DNA from: Chitinophagales bacterium
GTDB lineage: Bacteria; Bacteroidota; Bacteroidia; Chitinophagales; UBA2359
Assembly: GCA_020629335.1 (NCBI GenBank)
Contig: JAHDDN010000313.1
Location: forward strand, 1-6,432
Reading direction: 5' to 3'
Length of the DNA stretch: 6,432 nucleotides
The notes under the pieces were generated by a model. That model had not been told where the DNA came from, did no database searches, and was given only the letters and a program-made list of their open reading frames with translations. A program made the translations under genes and the position numbers. Below are positions 921-6,432 of the stretch, in pieces; within the stretch, counting starts at the first letter, position 1; every line of letters begins with the position of its first letter.

Positions 921-3617
921 ATGTTAAACAAAAACAACATCCCAGAACTCACCAACGACATCGTCACCAGCTTCCTAAAAAGCTTAGATGAATTTGATTT
1001 ATTTGACCATGATGGTCTATTAGTAGATATCCCCTTTGGGAAAATAGCAGGCTACCTTGCCAAAAAGATCATTGAAATCAATACAGCAGACGAGGCTTTA
1101 CAAAAAGCAGTAGCGATGTCTTATTTGACCAGCTTTATTCAAGGAGTCAAGTTTCTAAACTTTGAAGACCGACTGACTCAGGCTCGCTTGGGAGATATAG
1201 GAGGTAAGGTCAATGAGTCATTTGAGCAAGTAAATTTTGATGCTAAGGAGTTTGATATCCACAATTTTAATGGAAATATAGTGGCAGAACACTATATGGA
1301 TTTATTTAGAGAAGTGATGAAGGCTTATGATATGGAGGAGATGCATATTCAGCAGATAGCAAAATATGTAAAAGATTATGCACCACTCAATTTCCACCTG
1401 CTGTTAGAAAAAAGTGCTACTGTTTTTAATAAGTTGATCAGCTTTTTGGATAGTAAGTCTTATCAATTGATAAGAGAGGATTATTTGCTTAAACTATATC
1501 AAGTGAACCTCGTACATGAATTTCAAGAACCAGTATGGAATGATAAAAAAGGACTCACCCTAGATCAACTATATGTCAAGCCAAACTTTAAAGTACATCA
1601 ATATAGTTTTAAAGAGGAGGAGGAGAGGATACAATACAAGGATTATAAAGAGAATAATGGTTTCGTAGATATGGATTATCCATATGAATCTATACATGAA
1701 TTAATTTATGAAACACTGACAGAAAAAAATAGACTGAAATTAGCCAATAATGCTCCTCAATTAATTTTATTATTGGGCTATCCAGGACAAGGTAAAACTT
1801 CTTTTTGTAAAAAAATGCTTTATGATACTTATGCTGATCCAATGTTGTTGGGTAAGGATCTGTTCTTTTTAAAATTTAGGAATATTAGTAGGGTAAGGGA
1901 GTTATTAAACAACCCTTTAGCTACTCTAAAGGAAAAAATACGAAAGGAAATAGGCTTTGAGGTGAGTGATCAAAAAATAGAAGAATCTATTCTTTTACTA
2001 GATGGTTTGGATGAGTTGTATATGAAGGAAAATATGGAGAAGGATGAAATTGATACATTCATTCGTAATTTCCTAAGAGAATTAAAAAATGAATATAAAC
2101 AGCTTAAAATAGTCATTACAAGCCGTTATGGTTATTTGTATATGCCTAAACTGAAAGATAAAAATATTTTGATTGCTCAATTGAGTGAACTGAGTATTGA
2201 ACAACAGCAAAGATGGTTAGCCAACTATAAAAAATATCATCCTAATATTGTTTTAACTCAAGAAAAAATTAAGGAAATACATGAAAATAAATCGGGTAAT
2301 TTAAAGCATATAGCAGAGTTAATTAAGCAACCTATTTTATTGCACATGATTGCTCGTTTGCCAGAGGAAATTAGTGCGGATGATAATAAAGCCAAGATTT
2401 ATGATAATTTATTTAGTGCTTTAGTGAAGCGAGAATATGATACTGAAGAGGAAGGGCAAATTGATGTTTTGAAAGGGCCATCTGAAAAGGACTTGAGAAA
2501 GGTCATTAGAGAGATTGCTTTTGCTATTTTCAAAAGTGGTAATGAATATATCCATAAAACTCAAATGGAAAAATTGCCAGCCGTAGAACAGTTTATGGAG
2601 AAATTAGAGAATAGAAATATGAACAATGCGCTCAAAAGCTTAATGATTGCTTTCTATTTTCAGGAGGTTAAAAAGAAAGAGGGGGACGAGGGAGAAGATA
2701 AAGAGAAAAGAGAAGAGTATGCGGTAGAGTTTTTACACAAATCCTTAAAAGAGTATTTGGTAGCCGAAAAAATTTGGTTAAAGATGAAAAACTTTATTAA
2801 TAAAAATTCTGAAGAGGATTATACCATTGATAGCTTTGAAGAGGCGATGGGGCTAACTTTTCCTTTATTAGCTAAGCAAGTTTTATCTAAAGAGATAATA
2901 GACTATTTATCAGAGATTATTAAAAATGATGAGATGACTGATAAAAATAAAGAGGAACTGCATACTAGACTAGTAAAATTCTTTCCTGCTTATATCAAGA
3001 ATAATTTTCTACAAGAATATAAAGCAGAGAAAAATACTGCTATTAGTGCTTTTGATTTAGCTAATAATCATTGTTATGGATATTGGAGTATATTAAGTCA
3101 TTTACACATTGATCGAAATGCTATTCCTGAAGAGGAAGCTATTCAAGTTATGCTAATCGAACAATTTTACAGCTTATTGTATAAAAATAGATATATAAAT
3201 TTAGGCAAACAGCAGCTTAAAAACACCAATTTAAGAGGTATAAACTTATCCAATGCCATCCTTGATGGAGCCATCCTTGATGGAGCCAGCCTTGATGGAG
3301 CCATCCTTGATGGAGCCATCCTTGATCGAGCCATCCTTGATGGAGCCATCCTTGATCGAGCCATCCTTGTAGGAGCCATCCTTGTAGGAGCCAGCCTTGT
3401 AGGAGCCAGCCTTGATGGAGCCATCCTTGATGGAGCCATCCTTGATCGAGCCAGACTTGATCGAGCCAGACTTGTAGATACTGATCTAAAAGATGTAGAA
3501 GGCTTAACAGTAGAGCAATTAATCAAAACGGCTAGTCTGAAAGGCTGTAGAAATTTAGATCCTAAGTTAGAACAAGGCGTTAGAGATGCGGGTTATGGAC
3601 ATTTATTTGAAGAATAA
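921..3617 (+). CDS. NACHT-family STAND NTPase with C-terminal pentapeptide repeats
   Basis: This 898-residue protein is probably a cytosolic signal-sensing ATPase. Residues 1 to about 260 are rich in predicted helix and match no effector I recognise. The NACHT core has a Walker A GYPGQGKT at 286-293 (Lys292), a Walker B LLLDGLDEL at 358-366 with the NACHT-like acidic pair Asp364/Glu365, and a TSR motif with Arg402. EFLHKSLKEYLVAE at 603-616 matches the motif usual in the winged-helix part after NACHT. A helical linker leads to 18 pentapeptides (769-858) and a cap (859-898, GLTVEQL ... GYGHLFEE) of a kind often seen after such repeats. In known bacterial NACHT proteins the C-terminal repeats sense a trigger and the N-terminus carries out the response, often antiphage defence; that role here is inferred. 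The ATG has an A/C-rich leader without Shine-Dalgarno, normal for Bacteroidota. No clear promoter is visible. The exported-protein gene follows by 79 bases. Confidence 0.9.
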   Translation: MLNKNNIPELTNDIVTSFLKSLDEFDLFDHDGLLVDIPFGKIAGYLAKKIIEINTADEALQKAVAMSYLTSFIQGVKFLNFEDRLTQARLGDIGGKVNESFEQVNFDAKEFDIHNFNGNIVAEHYMDLFREVMKAYDMEEMHIQQIAKYVKDYAPLNFHLLLEKSATVFNKLISFLDSKSYQLIREDYLLKLYQVNLVHEFQEPVWNDKKGLTLDQLYVKPNFKVHQYSFKEEEERIQYKDYKENNGFVDMDYPYESIHELIYETLTEKNRLKLANNAPQLILLLGYPGQGKTSFCKKMLYDTYADPMLLGKDLFFLKFRNISRVRELLNNPLATLKEKIRKEIGFEVSDQKIEESILLLDGLDELYMKENMEKDEIDTFIRNFLRELKNEYKQLKIVITSRYGYLYMPKLKDKNILIAQLSELSIEQQQRWLANYKKYHPNIVLTQEKIKEIHENKSGNLKHIAELIKQPILLHMIARLPEEISADDNKAKIYDNLFSALVKREYDTEEEGQIDVLKGPSEKDLRKVIREIAFAIFKSGNEYIHKTQMEKLPAVEQFMEKLENRNMNNALKSLMIAFYFQEVKKKEGDEGEDKEKREEYAVEFLHKSLKEYLVAEKIWLKMKNFINKNSEEDYTIDSFEEAMGLTFPLLAKQVLSKEIIDYLSEIIKNDEMTDKNKEELHTRLVKFFPAYIKNNFLQEYKAEKNTAISAFDLANNHCYGYWSILSHLHIDRNAIPEEEAIQVMLIEQFYSLLYKNRYINLGKQQLKNTNLRGINLSNAILDGAILDGASLDGAILDGAILDRAILDGAILDRAILVGAILVGASLVGASLDGAILDGAILDRARLDRARLVDTDLKDVEGLTVEQLIKTASLKGCRNLDPKLEQGVRDAGYGHLFEE
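3255..3479 (+). repeat. 15 tandem 15-bp units encoding pentapeptides
   Basis: Fifteen 15-bp units encode residues 779-853. Each follows GCC, then ATC/AGC/AGA, CTT, GAT/GTA and GGA/CGA, giving Ala-(Ile/Ser/Arg)-Leu-(Asp/Val)-(Gly/Arg); only the last unit ends differently, in GAT (Asp). The GCC and CTT codons are invariant in every unit. These are the inward-facing Ala and central Leu of the pentapeptide helix, while the three varying codons face outward. Units 3-5 (3285-3329) and 11-13 (3405-3449) are identical 45-bp blocks. The near-identity implies recent growth by slippage or unequal recombination, so copy number may differ between strains and short-read assemblies may collapse it. Confidence 0.95.
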
Positions 3618-3696: not shown

Positions 3697-4527
3697 ATGA
3701 AAAAACTACCCTTACTATTAGGCCTGTTATGCCTATGCGCCAGTTTATGCGCACAAGAAAAAATCAAAACCACTCACATTAAGGTCAGGCTGTATAATGA
3801 ATTCCACAAGGAAGTGCTGACTAAAGATACACTCATAGAAGCTAATATACCCGATGCTCAGATAGAAAGCATAGTAGAACAAATGGGATTAGGTAAAGAT
3901 GAATTGCCCGACTCCATCATCAAGCGTTCGGTTAAGATTCGGCATTTGGAGCGACCTAAGTTGGTCTTTGGAGATGCGAATGTAGATTCTTTGATGCAGA
4001 CAGGGGGGGAATATACCATTCCTTATGAACGTATACTGGAAAATGGCTTGGTGGAAGTAGGTACTAAAACCCTTAAAGCTCGTAAGATCGACTTGGAAGA
4101 ATTATTTCCGCCTGATCCGACTGCTATGCTGCCAGAGTATGAGCATCGTATCACGAAGCGTTCTTACCGCAATATGACGACTAATCAGGTAGTGAATCTT
4201 ACTTTTGAGGATATTGATCGGATAGATTATTCTAAGGCAATACGAGACACAGTAGAGCGAGATAATTTATTGGAAGTGCTCAACTTCGTCTTTAAGCCGA
4301 ATTATAAGGCTGGGGTATTTGAGTTTAGTATCAGTATTGATACTAAGAAGGCAGTGAATCTAAAAATCACTAATCCTGTCGGGAATCCCGTTTATAATGA
4401 GACGATTGATCCTTTCCCTCGTAAGTATGAGGCGAATACGGAGATTGCGCTTAAGATGACAGGGGAGTTGATTTTTGAGGCGGAACAAAATGGCAATTAT
4501 TTTAAAAAGAGAATTATTGTAGAGTAG
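3697..4527 (+). CDS. Exported protein of unknown function, possible T9SS sorting domain
   Basis: I do not recognise the family of this 276-residue protein. It starts with a clear signal peptide: Lys2-Lys3, a Leu/Cys-rich core at 4-18 and a probable signal peptidase I site after Ala19 (SLCA|QEK). The residues before the cysteines do not make a good lipobox. Residues 20 to about 195 are charged, with no catalytic motif I can name. Residues 199-276 look like a beta-rich module with a VNLKITNPVGNPVYNE segment and the ending YFKKRIIVE. This resembles type A sorting domains of the Bacteroidota type IX secretion system (a strand with a G..V turn and a final KK-I-I-V), so the protein may reach the cell surface or be secreted. 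The resemblance is moderate. It lies 79 bases after the NACHT gene on the same strand with no strong terminator between, so co-transcription is possible. Its leader is A/C-rich with no Shine-Dalgarno. Confidence 0.8.
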   Translation: MKKLPLLLGLLCLCASLCAQEKIKTTHIKVRLYNEFHKEVLTKDTLIEANIPDAQIESIVEQMGLGKDELPDSIIKRSVKIRHLERPKLVFGDANVDSLMQTGGEYTIPYERILENGLVEVGTKTLKARKIDLEELFPPDPTAMLPEYEHRITKRSYRNMTTNQVVNLTFEDIDRIDYSKAIRDTVERDNLLEVLNFVFKPNYKAGVFEFSISIDTKKAVNLKITNPVGNPVYNETIDPFPRKYEANTEIALKMTGELIFEAEQNGNYFKKRIIVE

Positions 4528-4665: not shown

Positions 4666-6393
4666 TTAGGCCAATTCTTTTTGAATCTCTCCAAACTTAC
4701 CATCAATAGCAGTGAGTTCGCTTTCGATGGTATTGATACCTTTCATTTCTCTATTGATATGATTATCGAAAGGATCAAAGTTGCGATCTAATTTGTTTTT
4801 GATGTTTTCGATATAGGCTTTTAGCTTGCTTTCGATTTCTGTTTTGAGGCGAGTTCTACCATCTTTAATGGCATTATCGAATTCGGATACCACTCCTTTT
4901 CTTTTGAAGAGGATGGTGAAGCTGGCTAATAATAAACCCAAGCCCGATAAGATACCACCTGTAATATCCAATAACATACCATGTGTGGCAGTCATCAAGA
5001 TGGCTCCCACAACAGCTAAACCACCGCCCATAGCAATGTCTGGTGCTAGGGAAGAAGCTTGTGGAAATAATTCAGAATCCACAAAATTATCGGTATCACT
5101 TACAAACTCGCCGAAGTTCATTTGTAATTGCTGTAGGGTTTCTTGACGCTTATTGGCGATGTCTCCGAAGATTTCGTTATTGACGTCTAAGATCGTTTTG
5201 TTATTCTTTATTTTTAGCTCTACTATCTTGGCCATTTGGCGGATGCTTTCGGCTATGTCTTCTACACCATTATCCAACTTAGGTTGGAAGCGAGCGGTGA
5301 GTTGTTCTTCTAATTTCTTGGAGATTTCTTCTAACCAAGCTTTGATGGATTCATCTTTAGAGAAGATAGAACTGACCCCTCTTTTGATTAAGCTACCTAC
5401 CCCTAATCCTTCCTTGAATTCCTCTCTGATCTCGCCAGTTACATCATCGTATTCTTTGAGGAGGCCGTCTACTAATATGTCTACTCTATTAGCTGATTTG
5501 TCGGCTTGTGCGCCTAAAGAATCTGCAATTTCTGAACGGAAATCAATATCTGCTTCGTACTGTTTTTTGCGTAAGCTAACCGCTTCTTTGATATTGCCAG
5601 ATATTTGGTTGGCAGTATTCATGCTGGATTGTAGCTTTAGCTTATAAGCATTTCCACCTGTGATATTTTCGATGATATACTTTCTGATATCGTAGAATCC
5701 ACTTTCTTTTTCGTCTGCTCCTTCTAATTCCATTTTGGCAGATACGCAGAATACTTGTGGGTTTTCCAAGCCTTTTTTCTTGGCTTGCTCGATTACTCCA
5801 TTTTTATTGATGGCTAAATCTTCTTCATTCATCAAGTCCTTTTGTTGGAGGACGAAGATGATTTTTTTGCGCCATTCAGTATTGATGAAATCGAAAAACT
5901 CCCAGGCCGATTGTCGGTATGGGTTTTTGCATTCAAATACAAAGACAATCAGATCAGAGCTTGGTACAAAATCCTCTGTAATGGTTTGGTGATCGTCTGC
6001 TATAGTATTGGTACCAGGCGTATCGACGATAGAGATTTTTTGTAGAATATCTACTGGTAGAGAGATTTTCTTTAGTTGAGGATTGATTTCCGAAACAGCT
6101 TGAGTTTCACCATATACGATTTGTTGAACGGTGTCGGTACATGGATCAGGGGCTACCTTACAAATTTCTTCCCCTGTTTCTAATAAAGCGTTGACGAAGG
6201 AGCTTTTACCTGCTTTTACTTCCCCCACGATGACGAACATAAATGGTTCGTTGAGTTTAGAGCGAATATCGCTTACGGTAGCGGATAAGGACTCATTTCC
6301 TATATCGTTAGTTAATTGATGTAAATCTTTATAAAGCTCGTCTATTTTTGATTGATAGAGCTGGAGTTGACTGTCAATTATTTGATTTTCCAT
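4666..6393 (-). CDS. Dynamin-like membrane GTPase
   Basis: From the ATG at 6393 this is 575 residues. It has a dynamin-superfamily GTPase domain: P-loop GEVKAGKS at 57-64 (Lys63), switch I PCTDTV around Thr86/Thr88, G3 DTPG at 124-127 and a G5-like SAK at 218-220. The usual G4 (N/T)KxD is replaced by QQKD at 183-186, which keeps only the Asp. Long charged helices follow, likely the stalk. A hydrophobic pair at about 455-473 and 474-496, then KRK, should anchor it in the inner membrane. Helices resume to the end. Dynamin-like proteins remodel or repair membranes on GTP hydrolysis; some bacterial ones act in antiphage defence or lysis delay, and which applies here is unknown. The frame continues upstream through a GTG at 6423 to the window edge, so the start could be earlier. 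I prefer the ATG because Bacteroidota mostly use ATG and it leaves a natural amphipathic N-terminus. The gene is convergent with the exported-protein gene; its promoter lies outside the window. Confidence 0.9.
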   Translation of the reverse strand: MENQIIDSQLQLYQSKIDELYKDLHQLTNDIGNESLSATVSDIRSKLNEPFMFVIVGEVKAGKSSFVNALLETGEEICKVAPDPCTDTVQQIVYGETQAVSEINPQLKKISLPVDILQKISIVDTPGTNTIADDHQTITEDFVPSSDLIVFVFECKNPYRQSAWEFFDFINTEWRKKIIFVLQQKDLMNEEDLAINKNGVIEQAKKKGLENPQVFCVSAKMELEGADEKESGFYDIRKYIIENITGGNAYKLKLQSSMNTANQISGNIKEAVSLRKKQYEADIDFRSEIADSLGAQADKSANRVDILVDGLLKEYDDVTGEIREEFKEGLGVGSLIKRGVSSIFSKDESIKAWLEEISKKLEEQLTARFQPKLDNGVEDIAESIRQMAKIVELKIKNNKTILDVNNEIFGDIANKRQETLQQLQMNFGEFVSDTDNFVDSELFPQASSLAPDIAMGGGLAVVGAILMTATHGMLLDITGGILSGLGLLLASFTILFKRKGVVSEFDNAIKDGRTRLKTEIESKLKAYIENIKNKLDRNFDPFDNHINREMKGINTIESELTAIDGKFGEIQKELA

Positions 6394-6432
6394 AAAATGC
6401 TTAAAATTGGATTGGGCGGACACATAGGTCTG

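Follow-up and report, generated by a model that had tools for sequence, protein, structure and literature searches.

In the fungus Podospora anserina, the NWD and HNWD genes het-d and het-e encode proteins in which a NACHT domain is followed, at the C-terminus, by repeats that build a superstructure and are highly conserved among themselves. As described in the available portions of the sources, these repeats form a WD40 propeller, control recognition specificity and evolve in concert, with replacement-rich surface codons beside a conserved core (PMC1805685, PMC2873952, PMC4986451, PMC12222747). NACHT proteins are also described from bacteria (bNACHT, with NNH domains); the C-terminal domains described there are SNaCT or NCH1, and the word “pentapeptide” does not occur in the part of the text available (PMC12169576). 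In the pentapeptide helix, positions i and i-2 are packed inward, and i-1, i+1 and i+2 are solvent-exposed, according to the accessible part of PMC2964730. Here, a 6,432-nucleotide stretch of DNA from a Chitinophagales bacterium (assembly GCA_020629335.1, contig JAHDDN010000313.1), analysed at its full length and referred to as the window, is considered. It carries a gene for an 898-residue STAND protein (921..3617, plus strand) in which a NACHT NTPase domain, a region unmatched by Pfam and a C-terminal pentapeptide beta-helix follow one another, and the helix holds an array of nearly identical 15-bp units. This array is probably the high-internal-conservation state of a C-terminal beta-solenoid in a bacterial NLR-like protein, evolving by turnover of its units and by retention of changes on its surface.

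Tandem Repeats Finder detects a single array in the window. It spans 3255-3468 at a period of 15, comprises 14.3 copies that match at 92%, is free of indels and scores 323. Read in frame, it consists of 14 units of the form GCC-(ATC/AGC/AGA)-CTT-(GAT/GTA)-(GGA/CGA) at 3255..3464. The buried Ala (GCC) and Leu (CTT) codons are unchanged in 15 of 15 units, counting unit 15 (3465-3479, GCC AGA CTT GTA GAT), and the five varying nucleotide columns of units 1-14 (5, 6, 11, 12 and 13) all lie in the codons of i-1 (ATC/AGC/AGA), i+1 (GAT/GTA) and i+2 (GGA/CGA). Both features had been claimed in the original prediction, which was made from this DNA alone and which also placed the three variable positions on the solvent side of the helix; that placement agrees with the geometry given in the available text of PMC2964730 and with the sequence match of the window helix to solved pentapeptide beta-helices, such as 4yfo and 2j8k (15 distinct sequences at E 0.01). 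At least six combinations of alleles had been expected, and units 1-14 indeed comprise six DNA types, each encoding a distinct peptide, or seven and seven when unit 15 is added. Wherever two units agree in the residue at a given position, they also agree in its codon. The claim that each difference is a replacement thus holds for the codons and not necessarily for the mutations, since GAT and GTA are two bases apart and the shortest path between them may contain the silent step GTT-GTA.

The identity of the array codons is not a matter of codon bias, because GCC and CTT are rare elsewhere in the gene (6 of 42 Ala codons and 6 of 102 Leu codons outside the array), and the array is not a chance sequence. 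Its units also bear traces of local copying: adjacent units resemble each other more than they do after permutation of the array (one-sided P 0.012), with no significant similarity at the remaining lags. The guanine-cytosine content is 54% in the array and 32% in the gene, which, together with the rare codons, may point to a foreign founder unit. Searches with the array DNA (3255-3479) gave no match in phages or plasmids and short partial matches only, in 4 of 395 genomes.

The protein is a bacterial NACHT protein by its domain content, and it resembles bNACHT proteins in its central NACHT domain with an intact P-loop and DGLDE motif. The NACHT domain (residues 281-433; 1761..2219) is matched by Pfam at 34.9 bits against a cut-off of 26.7 and contains the Walker A and B elements, with the P-loop GYPGQGKTS at 1776-1802 and DGLDE at 2001-2015. 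The residues P288, G289, Q290, G291, K292, S294, D361, G362, L363, D364 and E365 are invariant in 51 aligned sequences, namely the window protein and 50 homologs. The Pentapeptide match reaches 72.8 bits (cut-off 20.2), and 20 contiguous A(D/N)LXX-like units, where at least eight are required, extend over residues 759-858 (3195-3494).

A larger comparison was made on near-identical pentapeptide arrays, most of them viral. Viral contigs were scanned for eight tandem GCN-NNN-CTN-NNN-NNN units, and the resulting stretches, at least 120, represent a sample; the demand for GCN and CTN limits replacement in the buried codons and leaves silent change free. From the loci, 144 arrays were extracted, of which eight were dropped as antisense or off-motif and 136 kept; ten duplicate loci (L002, L003, L042-L049) were skipped, and a few loci yield more than one array. 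The class that was tested comprises the 73 arrays with a mean distance below 1.5 of 15, 70 of them from viral contigs. Identical units were counted as copies and not as independent mutational events. In this class, 352 steps fall in the outward codons, 21 of them silent and 331 replacement, whereas 76-87 silent steps are expected under neutrality; 21 or fewer were obtained in none of 100,000 neutral draws, and omega (dN/dS) is about 4.4-5.2. Near-identical pentapeptide arrays as a class thus carry an excess of replacement over silent change. As a side observation, viral contigs L050-L169 encode many short pentapeptide proteins whose near-identical arrays draw on a stereotyped alphabet, N/D/Y, at i-1.

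The excess is seen in several further measures; the 21 multi-base steps in outward codons were excluded from the counts of allele share, codon position, and transitions and transversions. In 24 arrays whose consensus units are more than 3 nt apart, transitions fill 52 of 140 possible outward replacements and 4 of 128 possible silent changes in the whole unit (P 4e-13), and transversions 54 of 354 and 5 of 155, respectively. Replacement alleles occupy on average a share of 0.226 of the units and silent ones 0.113 (295 and 23 variants). When two units have the same residue, they use the same codon in 98.9% of pairs, against the 34% predicted by flanking codon usage (69 arrays), which consequently does not explain codon identity within the arrays. 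The modal codon at i-1 is NAY in 70 arrays; 66 of these contain Asn, 60 contain Asp, 34 contain Tyr and just 1 contains His, and the difference between Tyr and His indicates a filter that works on amino acids. Slippage was also simulated, with neutral outward codons as baseline and 50 runs per setting. The silent share was 0.23-0.24 at mean distances of 0.5-1.5 in the two settings that produced many such arrays, and scattered from 0 to 0.40 in settings that produced one or two; the observed share is 21/352 (0.06). The simulation nears this value with omega about 3-6, or when the acceptance of silent changes is lowered to a quarter of its neutral level. Flanking codon usage and simulated neutral slippage thus do not account for the excess.

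Copying of units in blocks is supported as well. Repeated blocks of two, three and four units occur at 1.45, 2.67 and 4.88 times expectation in 64 of 71 arrays, selected for having no fewer than 10 units and 3 unit types, with the window and L040 kept apart. With these recurring blocks elsewhere and the neighbour similarity in the window, the slippage-type origin proposed at the outset gains support. Across the 73 arrays, the similarity of adjacent units is no greater than that of distant units (Z -0.02 at lag 1) despite the recurring blocks, an observation that is not fully explained.

Turnover is seen in an orthologous pair, G132 and G035, two species of one genus in which the gene is found in 2 of 3 genomes examined. 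The genes lie in a 7-kb syntenic block of 87.8% identity, and outside the array, over 879 codons, synonymous divergence (dS) is 0.509, non-synonymous divergence (dN) 0.095 and omega 0.187. The arrays, in which core-unit counts for STAND proteins exclude boundary units, are polymorphic in length, with 37 core units in G132 and 20 in G035; there are 17 and 6 unit types, only 3 of which are common to both. Silent deviation within the arrays amounts to 2 per 133 silent sites in G132 and 1 per 72 in G035. As this is far below the flanking dS, the units of each array are, in the simplest reading, younger than the species split. In this pair, the array turns over faster than the rest of the gene, and the body of the receptor is conserved. 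Upstream in G132, a second stretch (L039 1250-1527), similar to the array end and the NACHT gene tail (80.6%, L040 8115-8403), is a remnant or a paralogous end.

In the evolution that we consider probable for the window array, slippage or unequal recombination would copy one unit or a few at a time, and such copying would sweep the entire array to a single set of silent bases. Purifying selection would hold the buried Ala and Leu, changes at the three solvent-facing codons would be kept and spread, and new surfaces would arise through reshuffling of a few alleles. The surface may then bind a ligand, from phage or elsewhere, and thereby trigger the NACHT switch. By analogy, the array would act as the sensor of the NACHT protein, and its diversity would be adaptive in the window as well. 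Five STAND arrays show a bias in the same direction as the viral class, although weaker; over all their silent sites, 8 silent changes are counted where 14-17 are expected (P 0.004-0.025).

A number of results weigh against this reading and are set out here with the alternatives. Most of the statistical weight of the class result comes from viral proteins. With 70 of the 73 arrays viral and a NACHT domain in none of the four viral array proteins scanned with Pfam (all with pentapeptide matches, two with DUF5758), the effect is not specific to STAND proteins, and the proposed link to STAND sensing is likewise not specific. The median open reading frame (ORF) of the 73 arrays is 203 residues, and only those of the window and L040 exceed 600; some of these ORFs end at the edge of the locus, beyond which a NACHT part could lie. 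When only outward codons are counted, the five STAND arrays hold 6 silent and 36 replacement steps against 8-10 expected silent ones (P 0.10-0.30, with or without G035), and for the three Bacteroidota NACHT arrays the corresponding counts are 2 and 18 (P 0.14-0.25). The absence of silent differences is also no rule for STAND arrays: the NNH3-pentapeptide proteins on plasmids of two Nostoc strains have 28 and 23 core units and a mutual identity of 66% over their length, and one of their arrays uses CTC 17 times and CTT 6 times for Leu. In the larger set, diverged arrays (mean distance at least 2.5) have omega of about 0.8-1.0, and the excess is gone; saturation could explain its loss, and a different process could do so equally. 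The available text of Persi and colleagues reports dN/dS averages below 1 for repeats and invokes relaxed constraint as much as positive selection (PMC5120217). Moreover, the best homolog of the window protein is only 40% identical over 96% of the length, and in G132 the contig ends within the gene, shortly 3' of the array.

Possibly, the window array is simply young and neutral, a product of recent slippage of one unit in which the few mutations were replacements by chance and the buried codons were under ordinary purifying selection. It requires just 4-5 point changes, for which nine pairings of a mutation bias with a choice of sites put the probability of zero silent ones at 0.07-0.35, and its most silent path, with 1 silent and 4 replacement steps, has P about 0.6. 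With so few steps, selection cannot be inferred from this array alone; the selection for surface diversity suggested by the original prediction finds its support in the near-identical class and in the fast array turnover of the STAND ortholog pair instead. The similarity of adjacent units is likewise what slippage predicts. Against a neutral origin, the same bias recurs in the 73 arrays, where chance is excluded, and there replacement alleles fill a larger share of the units than silent ones do (0.226 vs 0.113).

Constraint on the silent sites themselves, through codon choice or a need for DNA identity in recombination, would make surface replacements merely look excessive, and we consider it unlikely. 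It would fit the simulations, which return silent shares of 0.04-0.10 under quarter-rate acceptance of silent change where a setting produced more than one such array. Replacements at third positions are rare too, with 12 out of 203 possible ones present, compared with 194 out of 630 at first positions. However, outside the arrays these loci draw on many synonymous codons (the same-codon share expected from them is 0.34), the codons of the window array are not those preferred by the gene, and diverged arrays contain many silent changes. An assembly artefact, in which the 225-bp array would have been collapsed or chimerised from short reads, is very improbable. A typical short read is about as long as this array or shorter, and the window appears to be the entire 6432-base record, so that unit number and order may be wrong; yet the frame is intact across 15 units, six unit types are present, and similar arrays exist in other records, including a pair of Nostoc plasmids that are described as complete. 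Mutagenesis targeted to surface codons, for instance by a diversity-generating retroelement, is scarcely credible, for although first codon positions take most changes of the class (194 of 630 possible), the window columns (T/G, C/A, A/T, T/A, G/C) lack adenine specificity, the filter at i-1 acts on amino acids (Tyr 34 vs His 1, 70 arrays), and the three main ORFs of the window have no reverse transcriptase match in Pfam.

Homologs numbered 169 among 7987 scored candidates; among the best 120, identity never exceeds 42%, a value that covers part of the protein only. An uninterrupted run of 10 or more units is present in 88 of these 120 proteins, the window's included, and 9 of the 88, again with the window, have a 10-unit stretch at least 80% identical to its consensus (6 at 85%); the other high-identity arrays are built from motifs such as ANLEG, ADLRS and ADLSG. 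Searched with the window protein at E 1e-30, the phylum that includes G001 yielded 3 matching genomes out of 395, the order that includes G132 yielded 2 out of 114 and the family that includes G207 yielded 1 out of 249; the matches in the last two groups were already among the earlier ones.

Further features of the locus surround the array. Within the helix, four diverged units, INLGK, QQLKN, TNLRG and INLSN (3195..3254), with mixed Leu codons (TTA, CTT), precede it; unit 15 (ARLVD) and the exit unit TDLKD form a zone of array decay, identified from in-frame codons (3465..3494), and a C-terminal tail follows in the ORF translation (3495..3617), all on the plus strand. Near the N-terminus, residues 36-209 (1026..1547) weakly resemble NNH3, the NACHT N-terminal helical domain 3 (PF22735, E 0.0018, 18.8 bits, below the cut-off of 27). 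The only PADLOC match of the NACHT protein is mad8 at E 0.0061. An antisense ORF of 119 residues (3167-3526, minus strand) is probably a by-product of the 15-bp periodicity. Upstream of the gene lies an inverted repeat of 31 nt (708-738 / 831-861; 77% complementary, spacing 92 nt). Downstream, a 276-residue protein (3697-4527, plus strand) with a signal-peptide-like start has no Pfam or NCBIfam match; its C-terminal end resembles a type IX secretion sorting domain, which would suit a Bacteroidota host. One gene further from the NACHT gene and on the opposite strand, a dynamin-like GTPase (4666-6423, minus strand) is matched by Dynamin_N at 63.8 bits (Pfam) and by LeoBC of PADLOC at E 3.1e-14, with a LeoA-type NCBIfam match under the cut-off.

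Among known proteins, the NNH3-NACHT-pentapeptide proteins of Nostoc and Scytonema plasmids have the same layout as the window protein, and the Nostoc pair also carries near-identical arrays. They differ in that NNH3 is well over the cut-off in all three of these cyanobacterial homologs and in their unit alphabet (N/Y/I; D/S/R/Y/N; G/R/I); for NACHT, the Scytonema protein exceeds the cut-off, one Nostoc protein falls short of it, and the second Nostoc protein has no listed match at E 0.001. The viral pentapeptide proteins with DUF5758, a name absent from the open-licence PMC papers searched, have near-identical A-x-L-x-x arrays that likewise vary at i-1, i+1 and i+2; unlike the window protein, they are short, and two of the four scanned contain DUF5758 and none NACHT. 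With their larger statistical effect, viral pentapeptide proteins offer a tractable system for testing surface diversification. A tentative and rather doubtful generalisation is that pentapeptide beta-solenoids are a rapid-diversification device of bacteria and phages alike, in which duplication of blocks would freeze the core codons and almost all silent bases and diversifying selection would replace the solvent-facing codons; the device would serve as a reprogrammable sensor and NWD counterpart in NACHT proteins and, in viral proteins, as another side of molecular conflict. Highly repetitive WD40 proteins of prokaryotes also carry young internal duplications, but in another fold, and the available text reports low omega for old repeats and no surface-codon test (PMC5587647).

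Judged by titles and the openings of abstracts, none of the open-licence PMC papers listed in literature searches appeared to deal with such pentapeptide arrays. Counts of repeats with high internal conservation required at least 100 residues, according to the accessible text of PMC4986451. At the protein level, the best 10-unit stretch of the window array matches its consensus with an identity of 0.86, above the 85% likeness threshold, but its 70-75 residues (14-15 units) fall short of that length, and the gene is therefore likened to NWD-type genes rather than counted as a member. Unlike het-d and het-e, it is bacterial, is known here from its sequence alone, and builds a beta-helix of five-residue units. 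If the reading that we favour is true, a 15-bp unit change should be easily followed in passaged cultures, and some bacterial NLR-like proteins would share with fungal NLRs the three forces of turnover, homogenisation and diversifying selection, acting on a unit of 15 bp. By analogy, the window gene would work like the fungal NWD receptors, through concerted evolution joined to diversifying selection.

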